Of a stretch of DNA of 32,378 nucleotides, positions 9,319-20,545 are shown one piece after another. The number at the start of each line of letters is the position of its first letter. The first letter of the stretch is position 1. The stretch comes from Alphaproteobacteria bacterium (GTDB taxonomy: Bacteria > Pseudomonadota > Alphaproteobacteria > JAPYRI01), in the NCBI GenBank assembly GCA_029941135.1, contig JAPYRI010000026.1:1-32378 (forward strand). Direction: 5' to 3'. Both the position numbers and the translations under genes were made by a program. The notes beneath the pieces were generated by a model. It was given only the letters and a program-made list of their open reading frames with translations. It made no database searches and had not been told where the DNA came from.

Positions 9319-10139
9319 GACGAGCCCCGGACCAGTGGAGATAAAACATAAGTACGGCACGCGCTACCTAGAATTTTGGCGAGTTTTGTACGCCATGTGA
9401 TGGGGAGTGCAAGACCAAACAAACAATATCCGGTTTGAAACAGACCGGTCGGGGTGCTGCGGTTTATCACCCATCCGTTGTCGCGAAATTGGCGCTCCCA
9501 ATGGCTTGGCCGGAAATAATATATCTCGGTAAAGCCGTTGCCGCGTTCGCCATGGCGTGGGGGGATTAACACGGCAATCAATTTAGACAGCAAGCTGCGC
9601 GGCTTTTCGTTTGTGGTTTCAATGTTTGCTTGTGACCTAGCCTTGAGCGCGCCAAGGATGGTCTTTGGCAGCGCCGGGTAGTGGGCGAGAAGTGTCCACA
9701 GTCGCCAGATATGGGTGGGAACAATATGAACGGCTATGCCCTCCTTCCGCAGCACCCGATGCATTTCCTGGTGAAAGCGTGGTAGATCGACCACGTGTTC
9801 CAATACGCTGGACGTAAAAATGACATCGAACGATTGGTCGGCGAATGGCAAGCGATTGCCATCGTAGTCAATGATCGGCATCAGCCGGTCCCGGGCGTAG
9901 TTGCTGGAAGGCAGATCAACGCCTGTAGTTGATTTGCAGGTTTTGGCGAGCAAAGAAAGCTGGTAGCCGGTGCCGGCGCCAATCTCCAGCAAATCTGCGC
10001 CATGAAAACAATCCCCCAAGGCCGCAACCTCATTTTCTAGTTCAGCCTTCTTTAGAGCATGGAGGTGGTTTTGATCCATGGGGGTCCTATAACTTTCAAT
10101 ATTAGGCGCGGGCCCGCCTTTGCTTTGGTCCGGCAGCAT
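9315..10139 (-). CDS. Class I SAM-dependent methyltransferase
   Basis: This encodes 274 residues from ATG 10139. ATG 10079 (MDQNHLHAL) has an AGGA five bases upstream and may be the true start, giving 254 residues. Motif I is LLEIGAGTGYQLSLLAK. FADQSFDVIFTSSVLEHV and LRKEGIAVHIVPTHIW follow, as in Methyltransf_11 enzymes. The C-terminal half (HGERGNGFTEIYYFRPSHWE) resembles methyltransferases of glycan clusters. It lies first in a minus-strand pair with the TylF-type gene and diverges from the glycosyltransferase gene across a 74-base gap that must hold both promoters. Confidence 0.82.
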   Translation of the reverse strand: MLPDQSKGGPAPNIESYRTPMDQNHLHALKKAELENEVAALGDCFHGADLLEIGAGTGYQLSLLAKTCKSTTGVDLPSSNYARDRLMPIIDYDGNRLPFADQSFDVIFTSSVLEHVVDLPRFHQEMHRVLRKEGIAVHIVPTHIWRLWTLLAHYPALPKTILGALKARSQANIETTNEKPRSLLSKLIAVLIPPRHGERGNGFTEIYYFRPSHWERQFRDNGWVINRSTPTGLFQTGYCLFGLALPITWRTKLAKILGSACRTYVLSPLVRGSS

Positions 10140-10213
10140 ACCTGGGTCGCGATTGCGGGTCCATTCGTGTCATACTAAGGTCCACCGAAAACCCCGACGA
10201 TGTGTTTGAGTAA

Positions 10214-11347
10214 ATGGTGAGTTCGCTAATAATGGACGGGCCGGCGGAGAGCCCAAACCCGAGACCCAGGGTGATGCATGTCATTACCGACCTGGACACG
10301 GGTGGCGCTGAAACTATGCTCGCAAATCTTGTTGTGGCCCAGAAGGACCTCCCGGAACCGCCGCTGGTGGTGAGTTTGACCCCGGGGGGAACCCAAGCAG
10401 CGCGGATTACTGCCGCCGCCCTATCGGTTCGGCATTTGGGCATGCGGAGGGGCTGGCCAAATCCCATGGCACTTTTTCGCCTGGTGATGCTTATTCGCTC
10501 CTTTAAACCGAAAGTCATCCAAAGTTGGATGTACCACGCCGATCTGATGGCTTTATTGGCGCTTCTTTTGTCCGGGCGCCGCCGATCCACTCGATTGTTG
10601 TGGGGCGTGCGCTGCTCGGATATGGATTTGAGCCGGTACGCGCTCGGCTTGCGCATCGTCATTCGGCTATGCGCATGGCTTTCTTCTTTGCCCAATGCAG
10701 TCGTCGCCAACTCCCACGCGGGCCGCACATTTCACCGGTCACTCGGCTACAAGGCGCGCCGGTTTTTGGTGGCAGTAAACGGCGTGGACATGAATATTTT
10801 TCGACCAGATTCAAAGGCGCGGGCTGAAGTGCGGGCAGAATTAGGAATAGGAGACGACGAATTTCTGGTTGGTACCAGCGCCAGGGTCGATCCGATGAAA
10901 GATTATCCGACATTTATGGCGGCATTGGGACATATGCAACGTGTCTATGGGCTGGCGGCGGGTCGGGGGACCGGCAGCTTGCCCGATCAAATCCGGTTTT
11001 TTGGCTTGGGTGAACGCCCGGATATGCCACGGGTGTTGAACGCCCTTGATCTTTTTGTGTCCGCGTCGGCATTTGGCGAAGGATTTTCCAACGCGTTGGT
11101 TGAGGCGATGGCAACGGGCCTCCCGGTGATTGCGACCGGTGTCGGCGACGCGGCCCTGATTATTGATGATAGCGGTGTTGTTGTGCCGCCCCGTGATGTG
11201 TCTGCGCTCGCGGCGGCGATTGATGACTTAAAGAATGACCCGGCACGTTGCAAAAATTTGGGCCGGGCGGCCCGCGCGAGGGTGGCGGCGAATTACGATC
11301 TCAAACGTATTGTCCGCGATATTGAAACCCTGCATGGGGACTGGTGA
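10214..11347 (+). CDS. Glycosyltransferase family 4
   Basis: This is a 377-residue GT-B enzyme. The N-terminal domain begins VMHVITDLDTGGAETMLANL (typical GT4 acceptor domain). The C-terminal donor domain has NGVDMNIFRP, GTSARVDPMKDYPTFMAA and the EX7E-type motif within SAFGEGFSNALVEAMATGLP, followed by VIATGVGDAALII. It transfers a sugar from a nucleotide donor onto a lipid-linked glycan at the inner face of the cytoplasmic membrane. The flippase gene starts seven bases after the stop, so the two are cotranscribed. The donor and acceptor sugars cannot be told. Confidence 0.9.
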   Translation: MVSSLIMDGPAESPNPRPRVMHVITDLDTGGAETMLANLVVAQKDLPEPPLVVSLTPGGTQAARITAAALSVRHLGMRRGWPNPMALFRLVMLIRSFKPKVIQSWMYHADLMALLALLLSGRRRSTRLLWGVRCSDMDLSRYALGLRIVIRLCAWLSSLPNAVVANSHAGRTFHRSLGYKARRFLVAVNGVDMNIFRPDSKARAEVRAELGIGDDEFLVGTSARVDPMKDYPTFMAALGHMQRVYGLAAGRGTGSLPDQIRFFGLGERPDMPRVLNALDLFVSASAFGEGFSNALVEAMATGLPVIATGVGDAALIIDDSGVVVPPRDVSALAAAIDDLKNDPARCKNLGRAARARVAANYDLKRIVRDIETLHGDW

Positions 11348-16174: not shown

Positions 16175-16732
16175 ATAAAAAACCTTTGTTGGCTTTTATC
16201 CAAGGATAGGAGTTCAGAACCGCTCCTGAAACTGGCTTTCTTTTCGCCCTTGCCGAGACCCTTGGCGGCGGCCAATTGGCTCGGAGTTAAGCGGTTCACA
16301 GAACTGGGTGCGCAAGCCGCAATTCTGATCGAGATTGACGGATCCAGTATTGAAGATCCGTTCGGGTTGCCTAAGAAAAAGAGCAAACTGATCGTTTCGC
16401 GCCCAGGTGTCACGCAAGTAATCGATTTCCCAGTGCAGAACACCGGCGAGGTCGATGGCACGATATACCTGGATGACGACGGCGAGAATCGGCCCATGGC
16501 AGGCGTCGAACTTCAACTGTTGAACGACAATGCAGAGATTGTCGAGACTACGCGTTCTGCCAACGATGGGTTTTACCTATTTACCATGGTTAAGCCCGGG
16601 CACTATACGGTAGATATTCCCAAATTGGGGGGGGGGCGGCAACGCGATTTCCTAGTTGATCCGTCAGCGCCGATCGAAATCGACGCCAGAGGCAGCATCA
16701 TAAGCGACCTTGTTTTTGTTGTGCGTACTTGA
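16175..16732 (+). pseudogene. 5'-truncated C-terminus of a large envelope protein (usher-like, with Cna-B/CarboxypepD-like domain)
   Basis: The frame opens after a TGA at 16172 and has no good start codon; the first candidate is TTG 16250. The readable product is about 160-185 residues. It contains RPGVTQVIDFPVQNTGEVDG, then a beta-sandwich repeat GVELQLLN..GFYLFTMVKPGHYTVDIP that matches SdrD-B/carboxypeptidase-regulatory-like domains. In usher-like outer-membrane proteins such a domain lies at the C-terminus after the barrel. The N-terminal barrel is absent here. The usher link is inference from the flanking phrase only. Two SPOR-domain genes follow in the same direction, suggesting one former envelope operon. 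Confidence 0.5.
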
Positions 16733-16763
16733 ACTGCAATAGCCCTGAAACGTGAGTTAGAAA

Positions 16764-17206
16764 TGCGCCGTCAATTGGATGAGGAATTGGCATTAAGGGT
16801 CGACTCACTTGAGCGCATACCAAGGCGGGTTCCCCGCCGCTCGGACCCGAATGTCGGTACGGTGGTAAGCGAATAGGAGAGCACGGAAAGCGACCCGACC
16901 GTTGACTCTTCGCCCGCTTCTACAAATAAACCTGATCTGGCCGCGTCAGTCCGAACGGGCCTTCACTTAGCGTCGTATCGGACTCGGGATAATGCCGAGG
17001 CGGCTTGGAGCGAAATTTGGGGACAGCACAATAATATACTCGTCGGTCTTGATCATCGGACAAGTAAAGTAGATTTAGGACCAGGCAGAGGAGTATATTT
17101 ACGGCTGAGCGCTGTGACCGGTCAAGATAATGCTGGTGCCAAGTTAATTTGCGAGCAATTGAACGGGCAGGACCAGTACTGTGCTGTCTCGACAGCTACC
17201 AACTAA
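16764..17206 (+). pseudogene. SPOR-domain protein interrupted by an in-frame TAG
   Basis: From ATG 16764 the frame reads MRRQLDEELALRVDSLERIP and runs to a TAG at 16874-16876 (after VVSE). It then continues in the same frame with no other stop to TAA 17204-17206. The part after the TAG includes a clear SPOR (peptidoglycan-binding) domain: LHLASYRTRDNAEAAWSEI, KVDLGPGRGVYLRLSAVTG and AKLICEQLNGQDQYCAV. SPOR domains bind denuded glycan strands at division sites. There is no restart codon between the TAG and the domain. It sits directly before a second, intact SPOR gene, so it is probably a decayed paralogue. Confidence 0.65.
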
Positions 17207-17223
17207 TGATCCGGGAGTATCGG

Positions 17224-18054
17224 ATGAAATTGCCTTGCCCAGCGCAGGGAGAAAGTGTTTTGGAGCGGGCCGCCCGCCGGCAATTACGCCGGCGCAAGCC
17301 AGTGGCGATTGTGATCGTAAGGCTCTCTGCAATAGTCGTGCCTCTTTTGCTGGCAAGCGGTTGCGTCCAACAAGCGGCCGAGACCGAAATATTCCCTGGC
17401 TACGTCTTTGGCGAGGGCAAGAACAATATGCTTAATTACCCGGAAGATCCTGGCCGTACGGAATATTCTGGAGAGCGCTTGAATGTTAGATTTAAAGATC
17501 AGATGGCGAATGCTATGTCTGAGTATAGTGATCTGCAGAGCGCCCCGCCTGATCAACCACACAACATCAATTTGGGAGATGCATTAGCGGAGATAAGTCG
17601 ATCTACGCGGGCGCTTAATGACAGCGCGGCTATTCGGCCGAGCCCCTTAATAAGCGGAGATGTGGAGCTTCAGGATATGCGTACGTCGAATGTTAGAAGT
17701 GTAATAAATACTGCTCCAAATCAAACCAACGGTCGCGAACAGAAAACAGCAAAATCAATTGAGCCGGGCACACTCGAAAATTGGCAAACAGCCTTATTTT
17801 TAGCGTCCTACCGGTCAAATTCAGCCGCCGAGGCGGGCTGGCACGAAGTGAGCCAGCGATTTGCAGATCCTCTGAAAGAGTTCCAGGCTAAAATTGTTGA
17901 AGTAGATTTAGGCTCGCGAAAAGGCGGCATTTATTTTCGCTTGTTTGCCGCACCCATGGATGGGGAAGAACAGGCGCGCGCCGTTTGCCAAGTGCTGGCA
18001 AAGAGCAACCAATTTTGTCGTGTCGCCACTGCGGGCGGGCGCATCAAATGGTAA
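17224..18054 (+). CDS. SPOR-domain lipoprotein
   Basis: This encodes 276 residues from ATG 17224, which has GGGAG six bases upstream. ATG 17206 overlaps the previous stop and GTG 17302 would give a shorter signal. A hydrophobic stretch ends in the lipobox LASGC (Cys47), an unusually long n-region if the 17224 start is right. A low-complexity periplasmic linker follows. The last 75 residues form a SPOR domain (FLASYRSNSAAEAGWHEVSQ, KIVEVDLGSRKGGIYFRLFA, then AVCQVLAKSNQFCRVA). It should tether the outer membrane to peptidoglycan and accumulate at septa. It is a paralogue of the broken gene just upstream, and both share the VDLG...GxYxRL core. Confidence 0.75.
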   Translation: MKLPCPAQGESVLERAARRQLRRRKPVAIVIVRLSAIVVPLLLASGCVQQAAETEIFPGYVFGEGKNNMLNYPEDPGRTEYSGERLNVRFKDQMANAMSEYSDLQSAPPDQPHNINLGDALAEISRSTRALNDSAAIRPSPLISGDVELQDMRTSNVRSVINTAPNQTNGREQKTAKSIEPGTLENWQTALFLASYRSNSAAEAGWHEVSQRFADPLKEFQAKIVEVDLGSRKGGIYFRLFAAPMDGEEQARAVCQVLAKSNQFCRVATAGGRIKW

Positions 18055-18093
18055 GGCGAACCGTGTTTATCCAATCGTCGCGGGAGTGAAATT

Positions 18094-18945
18094 ATGATCA
18101 AAGTTATTCGCGTCCTAAGTATTGGGCTGTGTCTCGTCGTTCTTACATCGTGCGTCTCAGTAAGCCGCCTTGACACAGCTTCTACGAACGGAATTACATT
18201 TGTCATAGATGGCCGCAGTTTTGACGATATTTGGGATGCAGCCCACCAGTCGCTTACTGAGGATTTGACGATCGTCGCCGAAAATCGATTAAGCGGCTAT
18301 ATTAAGGCGACAAGTGAAGCAGATGTGGCGACCGTCAATTCTGGTGAAGTTGTTGGTATGTTTATTACCTTGATGGATGTTGAAGCTCAGCGATACTGGG
18401 TCGCAGTTGTAAGTGAGCCGCTCTATCAGCCCGAGTATATGAGCCGGAATTGGCATCTACAAGTGGCGCGGCAGATGAAAACGACGCTCGGGGAACCAAC
18501 TGCCTCCTTCATCTTTGAGCCCGATATGGCCTTGGCTGGGGAGCCGTTACGCGCTGCAATCAGTGCTGCCACGGGGGGAGAAGAGCGGGCCCGCTTTGTT
18601 GATGCCACACCGATTGCGACGGCTTTGATGGGAGACAGCATTGCGACCAATCCGTTTATGGTCGGTTATGCCTGCCAGATGGGTGCCTTGCCTCTCAGTC
18701 GGGCGGCCCACGATTCCGACAAAGTGGCACAAATTGTGGCCGAAATGGCGTCGGTGGCGCCGGAATCAATAGCTGTTGAATTGGAAGATGTGATTGCAAA
18801 GCGGGTTGAGTTCCTGGCCGACTATCAGAATGCGGCCTACGCGGAACGGTACCGGTCAACCGTCGAAAAGGTCGCTTCGGCGGAGCAAGAAAGCACCCCG
18901 GGAACGGACGAATTGGCGCTCACGGTCCGCCCGCTATATGTTTAA
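18094..18945 (+). CDS. Chimeric ORF: lipoprotein joined in frame to indolepyruvate ferredoxin oxidoreductase
   Basis: ATG 18094 has GGGAG upstream and starts a signal with the lipobox LTSC (Cys20). Residues 21 to about 133 look like a complete small-lipoprotein domain (FDDIWDAAHQSLTEDLTIV, GYIKATSEAD, GEVVGMFITLMD, ending QVARQMKTTLG). From about residue 135 the sequence changes to that of the C-terminal region of 2-oxoacid (indolepyruvate) ferredoxin oxidoreductase: FVDATPIATALMGDSIATNP, then FMVGYACQMGALPLS. The lipoprotein has therefore lost its stop codon and run into a cytosolic enzyme fragment. The frame ends at TAA 18943 because of a one-base shift. It is probably the scar of a large deletion. 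The product could still be a lipoprotein with a useless tail. Confidence 0.65.
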   Translation: MIKVIRVLSIGLCLVVLTSCVSVSRLDTASTNGITFVIDGRSFDDIWDAAHQSLTEDLTIVAENRLSGYIKATSEADVATVNSGEVVGMFITLMDVEAQRYWVAVVSEPLYQPEYMSRNWHLQVARQMKTTLGEPTASFIFEPDMALAGEPLRAAISAATGGEERARFVDATPIATALMGDSIATNPFMVGYACQMGALPLSRAAHDSDKVAQIVAEMASVAPESIAVELEDVIAKRVEFLADYQNAAYAERYRSTVEKVASAEQESTPGTDELALTVRPLYV

Positions 18946-19438
18946 ATTGATGGCCTACAAGGACGAGTATGAAGTCGCGCGTCTCTATACCGATGGCCGG
19001 TTCGAAGAGAAAATACGGCGTCAGTTTGAGGGCGACATTAGACTCGAATTTAATTTGGCGCCGCCGCTTTTGACGCCAAAGGATTCAAAAACCGGTCACT
19101 TGACCAAGCGTCCCTGTGGGGCTTGGATGATGGGCGGGTTCAGGATACTGGCCAAGTTCAAGGGGCTGCGCGGGACTAAATTTGATTTATTCGGTTACAC
19201 CGAAGAGCGCAAAACTGAACGTCGCCTGATTCGTGATTATGAAGCTAGATTGGACCAGATACTTGCCAGTTTGAACCGTGGCAATCATGGTATTGCGGTC
19301 AGGATTGCATCTCTGCCAGATCACATACGCGGTTACGGGCATGTGAAGGAAGCCGCGATCGCGCAAGCCAGGGTCGAAGAGCAAGAACTGGTGTCGGCTT
19401 TTGAGGGCGGTCACAACCGGGCCGTAGCGGCAGAGTAA
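18494..19438 (+). pseudogene. Indolepyruvate ferredoxin oxidoreductase, C-terminal fragment with frameshift
   Basis: Bases from about 18494 encode the family's C-terminal third. Up to V at 18925-18927 it is read in the frame of the lipoprotein. After one extra base (around c18928) it resumes as ARYMFKLMAYKDEYEVARLY, then FEGDIRLEFNLAPPLL, GLRGTKFDLFGYTEERK and LPDHIRGYGHVKEAA, ending at TAA 19438. These blocks are typical of the long fused bacterial IOR. The N-terminal thiamine-diphosphate and ferredoxin-like regions (about 800 residues) are missing. The enzyme would oxidatively decarboxylate aryl pyruvates, so this fragment cannot be active. Confidence 0.75.
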
Positions 19439-19492
19439 ACGGTCTGCCTAAGAAGAGGCCGGTCAGTAGTGTGGCTGAGTAGAGGAAATAGT

Positions 19493-20545
19493 TTGAGCTT
19501 CCTTCCCGAAACAACGCGAGACCAAAAAGCTATCGCCGTTTGGCTGATCGTCAGTGCAGCATTGGTATTTGGTATGGTTGTGCTAGGCGGCGTGACGCGC
19601 CTCACCCATTCCGGACTATCCATGGTCAACTGGCGCCCTGTCACCGGTTTTTTGCCGCCAATCGGGGAAGTCGAATGGGGTCAAGCCTTTGACGAATATA
19701 AGAAGTATCCCGAGTACCAAAAAATAAACAAAGGCATGACCGTAGACGGCTTTAAGCAAATTTTTTGGTTTGAATTCTCCCATCGACTGCTCGGACGATT
19801 GATCGGCCTCGTTTTTTTTATCCCCTTTCTTTATTTCACAGTTCGGCGACGCGTGGGGCGGCGCTTGTTTCCGAAATTGCTTGTCATGTTTGTGCTTGGC
19901 GGCATGCAGGGTGTTCTCGGCTGGTACATGGTGAAAAGCGGACTTGTCGATCGGCCTGATGTCAGCCACCTGCGATTGACCGCTCACTTAGGGGCGGCCT
20001 TGTTGATCTACGGCTATATTCTGTGGGTTGCCCTGGGTCTATTGGGGTCGGGGACATCAGACAATGATCCGGCTGCGGCCCGTTTACGGCCGTTTACATT
20101 GGTGCTGGTTGCCGCTGTTGGTTTGGTAGCTCTTTCCGGCGGACTGGTCGCCGGTCTCGATGCGGGATTTCACTACAATACGTTTCCAATGATGGGCGAC
20201 AATTGGGTGCCAGACGGCCTCTTCGCTCTAAAGCCGTGGTGGACTAATTTCATCGAAAACTGCACAACGGTGCAGTTCGATCACCGTTTATTAGCGGAAA
20301 GTCTATTGCTTGCCGCCATTGGAATATACCTGTGGGCGCGGCGCCTGGGATTGTCCGGCCGGGCCCGGGCTGCACTTTTGGCCTTGGCGGGTATTATGAC
20401 TTTTCAGGCTGTCCTCGGCATAACGACACTTGTGTTAGTAATCCCCGTTCCGCTTGCTGCAGCGCATCAGGCGGGGGCTCTTGTCGTCTTGGCCTGCGCC
20501 GTATGGGCGGCCCGTGCATTAAGTCCTGTCGACATAGATAATTAG
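19493..20545 (+). CDS. ctaA: Heme A synthase, COX15/CtaA family
   Basis: This encodes 350 residues from TTG 19493, chosen because AGAGGAA lies six bases upstream. A GTG at 19469 would add eight residues. The protein oxidises heme O to heme A for the aa3-type cytochrome oxidase in the inner membrane. Eight hydrophobic spans are visible, with the four heme-ligand histidines at 97 (FEFSHRLLGR), 165 (RLTAHLGAA), 264 (QFDHRLLAE) and 325 (AAHQAGAL). The length and the GGVTRLTHSGLSMVNWRPV start are typical of alphaproteobacterial and mitochondrial COX15. No other cytochrome-oxidase gene is adjacent. Confidence 0.93.
   Translation: MSFLPETTRDQKAIAVWLIVSAALVFGMVVLGGVTRLTHSGLSMVNWRPVTGFLPPIGEVEWGQAFDEYKKYPEYQKINKGMTVDGFKQIFWFEFSHRLLGRLIGLVFFIPFLYFTVRRRVGRRLFPKLLVMFVLGGMQGVLGWYMVKSGLVDRPDVSHLRLTAHLGAALLIYGYILWVALGLLGSGTSDNDPAAARLRPFTLVLVAAVGLVALSGGLVAGLDAGFHYNTFPMMGDNWVPDGLFALKPWWTNFIENCTTVQFDHRLLAESLLLAAIGIYLWARRLGLSGRARAALLALAGIMTFQAVLGITTLVLVIPVPLAAAHQAGALVVLACAVWAARALSPVDIDN

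Follow-up and report, generated by a model that had tools for sequence, protein, structure and literature searches.

A probable young pseudogene of single-chain indolepyruvate ferredoxin oxidoreductase joined in frame to a lipoprotein gene in an alphaproteobacterial genome

Bacterial pseudogenes and deletion-made fusions, including those of pseudogene clusters (PMC3711429), display truncations, frameshifts and losses of stop codons that join neighbouring reading frames. Single-chain indolepyruvate ferredoxin oxidoreductase (IOR) is described by the profiles PRK13029 and PRK13030 and by the Pfam domains POR and DUF6537. In the window, by which we denote the whole analysed stretch of 32,378 nucleotides of an alphaproteobacterial contig, a remnant of such a gene aligns with family positions 828-1160, and in the stretches that survive no near-invariant residue has been lost; compared to intact members it lacks positions 1-827 and a further 26 codons, carries a one-base frameshift and falls far below the family cut-offs. 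The remnant is continuous in frame with a lipoprotein sequence upstream. The locus shares the hallmarks of known pseudogene fusions and differs from them not in kind but only in the pair of genes involved, and it is probably an ordinary young IOR pseudogene, a known kind of object.

The fused open reading frame (18094-18945) runs for 283 codons, first through the lipoprotein and then into the final third of IOR; this and all features below lie on the forward strand. A probable ribosome-binding site of the lipoprotein, GGGAG (18082-18086), is read directly from the sequence 7 nt before the ATG at 18094. The lipoprotein part (18094-18492, residues 1 to about 133) begins with a hydrophobic stretch and a lipobox ending in cysteine, MIKVIRVLSIGLCLVVLTSC (LTSC, Cys20), as expected of a substrate of Lgt and LspA. 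BLAST alignments of intact IORs with the fused frame mostly begin at residue 134-136, which places the junction at 18487-18498, where the lipoprotein stop codon and about 830 N-terminal IOR codons are gone. The claim of the sequence-only reading that the lipoprotein lost its stop and runs into the IOR tail is thus borne out. A repeat search found no direct repeat at the junction that would account for a deletion. The predicted structure of the fused product has a mean pLDDT of 35.6, too low to be informative.

The lipoprotein half matches no named family in Pfam or NCBIfam, and a search of PHROGs returned no convincing relatives. Among 385 genomes of the class, its sole relative is a weak one, a protein of 152 amino acids with its own stop, from an order represented by one genome only. 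A two-sequence profile built from this protein and the window lipoprotein recovers a paralogue in the same genome as the window, a lipoprotein of 292 amino acids on contig C25 (832-1710) with a proline- and glutamine-rich tail and an N-terminal domain related to the window lipoprotein. Both relatives share with it the lipobox cysteine, conserved in the alignment, a W-x-A motif, a G-x-I motif and the terminal segment; they differ from it in being only about 21-27% identical and in that neither is fused to IOR. The domain shared by the two relatives ends at the equivalent of about residue 132 of the window protein, in good agreement with the earlier suggestion that the lipoprotein is essentially complete to about residue 133. 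Because the shared segment ends there, the lipoprotein domain appears from the alignment to be whole or nearly whole, and the join probably lies close to the position of the former lipoprotein stop. This half may still work and be exported and lipidated.

The IOR portion of the fused frame corresponds to profile positions of about 828-997 out of 1170. Its residues 134-205 match positions 847-917 of PRK13029 (whole-protein E 2.5e-23), which also matches a second stretch downstream, and residues 230-275 match DUF6537 in Pfam (E 8.6e-10), while in an overlapping frame (18794-19438) DUF6537 is matched at E 9e-57 and PRK13030 over positions 984-1159. A profile search of the organism's own genome resolves the remnant into three pieces, at positions 828-901, 926-997 and 984-1160. 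The first (18493-18699) is the C-terminal part of the POR gamma-like domain, the second (18703-18927) reaches the start of DUF6537, and the third (18929-19438) continues DUF6537 through the natural IOR stop at 19436-19438; all three are delimited by profile and BLAST matches. The jump from profile position 901 to 926 corresponds to an in-frame deletion of 26 codons (78 bp) between PLS and RAAHD, at 18699-18703, a gap that the alignment with intact IORs also displays. Each of the 38 non-redundant intact IORs examined carries 26 or 34 residues at this site, and the remnant is unlike every one of them. A net one-base frameshift follows at 18926-18931, where the tblastn frame changes (about 18927/18929) with every listed intact IOR query; the first frame then stops at 18943-18945, and DUF6537 is split at about 18928, after some 46 of its 203 positions. 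The list of damage drawn up from the letters had correctly placed the junction and a frameshift near 18928 but missed the 26-codon deletion.

Programmed ribosomal frameshifting was considered for the frame change and rejected. No in-register slippery heptamer is seen at 18920-18947. The heptamer TTTAAAT (18941-18947) sits in the wrong register and shares bases with the stop, and the homology has already changed frame upstream of it. The tblastn queries with intact IORs also argue against it, as these carry the corresponding region in one frame.

The remnant's best IOR profile scores are 82 bits before the frameshift and 204 bits after it, against cut-offs of 952 and 816, and it is far from the full length of about 1165 amino acids. 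No over-cut-off IOR was found anywhere in the genome with PRK13029 or PRK13030; the locus thus combines three lesions with the lack of an intact copy in the genome, the signature of an IOR pseudogene. A query made of the 822 N-terminal residues of IOR has no match in the assembly (3.02 Mb in 178 contigs, completeness 95.26%), so that the N-terminal regions binding TPP and 4Fe-4S clusters are absent from it, whereas in each of the six relatives searched this query has matches of nearly full length, with the best copies 64-72% identical. The proposed loss of about 800 IOR residues therefore stands, with the figure corrected to about 830. Apart from the remnant, one 2-oxoacid:ferredoxin oxidoreductase was found in the genome, a KorAB-type pair encoded on the short contig C151 (12-1830); it is a 2-oxoacid:acceptor oxidoreductase with its alpha subunit cut by the contig end. 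A KorA-like match was weighed as the missing part of IOR and rejected as belonging to this enzyme.

That errors in assembly can give rise to false pseudogenes is well documented (PMC11017572). All three lesions (junction, 78-bp gap and one-base shift) might be errors of assembly or consensus laid over an intact ior gene, or the outcome of a mixture of strains. The assembly is a fragmented one of scaffolds, with runs of N inside those sampled (C2, C3 and C16); the window itself contains no N, the absent IOR part turns up nowhere else in the assembly, and the three lesions are separate events within 1 kb, which argues against one chimeric join. Among 70 conserved gene locations tested in the same genome (0.81 Mb), we found a convincing frame break only at the IOR locus and at one other. 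Since just one other frameshift-like locus was found among the 70, the assembly does not appear to be generally ridden with indels. That other locus, on contig C20 (about 9720-11100), encodes a histidine kinase that is split between two frames near position 10100, with its N-terminal part in one and its ATPase part in another, possibly a second frameshift pseudogene or a sequence error. The remaining multi-frame candidates of the survey were dismissed, being explained by a run of N in threonine synthase, by leuC-leuD and, on contig C6, by what are apparently adjacent related genes.

The damage appears to be recent. Of the 63 columns with conservation of 95% or more among 33 intact IORs, the remnant keeps all 63, and it differs at 3 of the 102 columns conserved to at least 80%, where the average intact IOR differs more often. 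Both IOR parts display the codon statistics of working genes, each in its expected frame, and their composition is like that of the neighbouring sequence. The retention of near-invariant residues together with an intact coding signal suggests that IOR was under selection until recently. Judged by these residues, decay has barely begun, and the changes since inactivation would be mainly insertions and deletions. Three indels without a missense change at near-invariant sites are a somewhat atypical pattern of decay and would be compatible as well with assembly error, which, with the evidence of the previous paragraph and with the degraded state of the sequence upstream speaking against it, we regard as unlikely.

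The fused frame is preceded at a distance of 39 bp by an ORF for a SPOR-like lipoprotein (17149-18054, from the ORF list and Pfam), with which it probably shares a transcript, and is followed by an intact ctaA gene for heme A synthase (19469-20545; COX15-CtaA by Pfam and profile matches). The coding signal is weak over much of the region from 15.9 to 17.2 kb just upstream, a degraded stretch of gene scraps that the first description of the surroundings had overlooked. Within it, a SPOR-like stretch at 16733-17206 shares 34% identity with residues 201-295 of ORF 17149-18054 and is interrupted by an in-frame TAG (16874-16876); it probably represents another copy of the SPOR lipoprotein, now broken. 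Positions 16214-16732 encode a C-terminal piece resembling CarboxypepD_reg and SdrD_B, with no clear gene start, possibly the end of what was once a larger surface protein.

If a deletion had joined the two genes, relatives might be expected to carry the lipoprotein and ior on either side of the deleted block, a gene order that no relative examined shows. In the IOR loci examined, IOR lies beside neither ctaA nor this lipoprotein, and no shared neighbourhood was found across the ctaA and IOR loci of the class or the IOR loci of GTDB genomes, a comparison set in which the window genome is the only member of its order. The want of a conserved neighbourhood, and the patchwork of scraps that the region between 15.9 and 19.4 kb resembles, would suit a history in which the IOR tail never stood beside the lipoprotein, and a rearrangement or an imported fragment brought an already truncated piece behind it. 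Against this stand the common strand of the two parts, the retained natural IOR stop, the composition of the remnant, which is that of its neighbours, and the lack of any mobile-element gene among the Pfam matches of the window; such an origin seems quite improbable.

The history that we find most probable is that of a recently inactivated single-chain IOR gene, joined in frame by a deletion to the lipoprotein gene upstream and afterwards struck by two more lesions. A lipoprotein gene would have stood upstream of ior on the same strand. One deletion, about 2.5 kb long or longer, would have taken IOR codons 1 to about 830, with the TPP-binding, 4Fe-4S and first gamma parts, along with the lipoprotein stop codon and any 3' tail, joining the two genes in frame. 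The remnant would then have suffered the 78-bp in-frame deletion and the one-base shift. A ribosome starting at the lipoprotein's own site would now translate the full lipoprotein domain and 150 residues of IOR scrap before the stop at 18945, an extension that is probably tolerated or trimmed. A fusion by deletion is, on sequence grounds, the likely interpretation. Of the proposal that a precise deletion junction created a new ORF, the loss of the stop and of most of IOR is supported, and the precise deletion is inferred; a new ORF has arisen in the mechanical sense, and nothing indicates that it is a functional gene.

The open in-frame ORF, its good ribosome-binding site and the conserved residues of the remnant could also be taken as signs of a working gene, expressed and selected as a lipoprotein lengthened by an IOR-derived C-terminal extension. 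The IOR half, however, lacks the catalytic domains and a block of 26 residues, its DUF6537 is cut by the frameshift, and no relative examined carries the fusion; we also know of no role for an IOR fragment outside the cytoplasm. A selected fusion of this kind, a protein newly born by the loss of a stop codon with its tail drawn from a dying neighbour gene, is very hard to credit.

The pseudogene reading accounts for the odd gene call of a lipoprotein seemingly fused to an oxidoreductase, and offers a clean case of a deletion joining two reading frames ahead of missense decay; its importance beyond annotation is small. Over-cut-off IOR is present in 176 of the 385 sampled genomes of the class; about half of the sampled members have none or fall below the cut-off, and the loss of IOR is therefore ordinary. 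Alphaproteobacterial members of the IOR family can use other 2-oxo acids, as has been suggested for EdcC in the breakdown of estradiol (PMC7793797), and for this reason the lost substrate is not nameable with certainty. The genome is not to be credited with IOR, and the state of the remnant suggests that IOR-type 2-oxoacid oxidation disappeared from this lineage only very recently.
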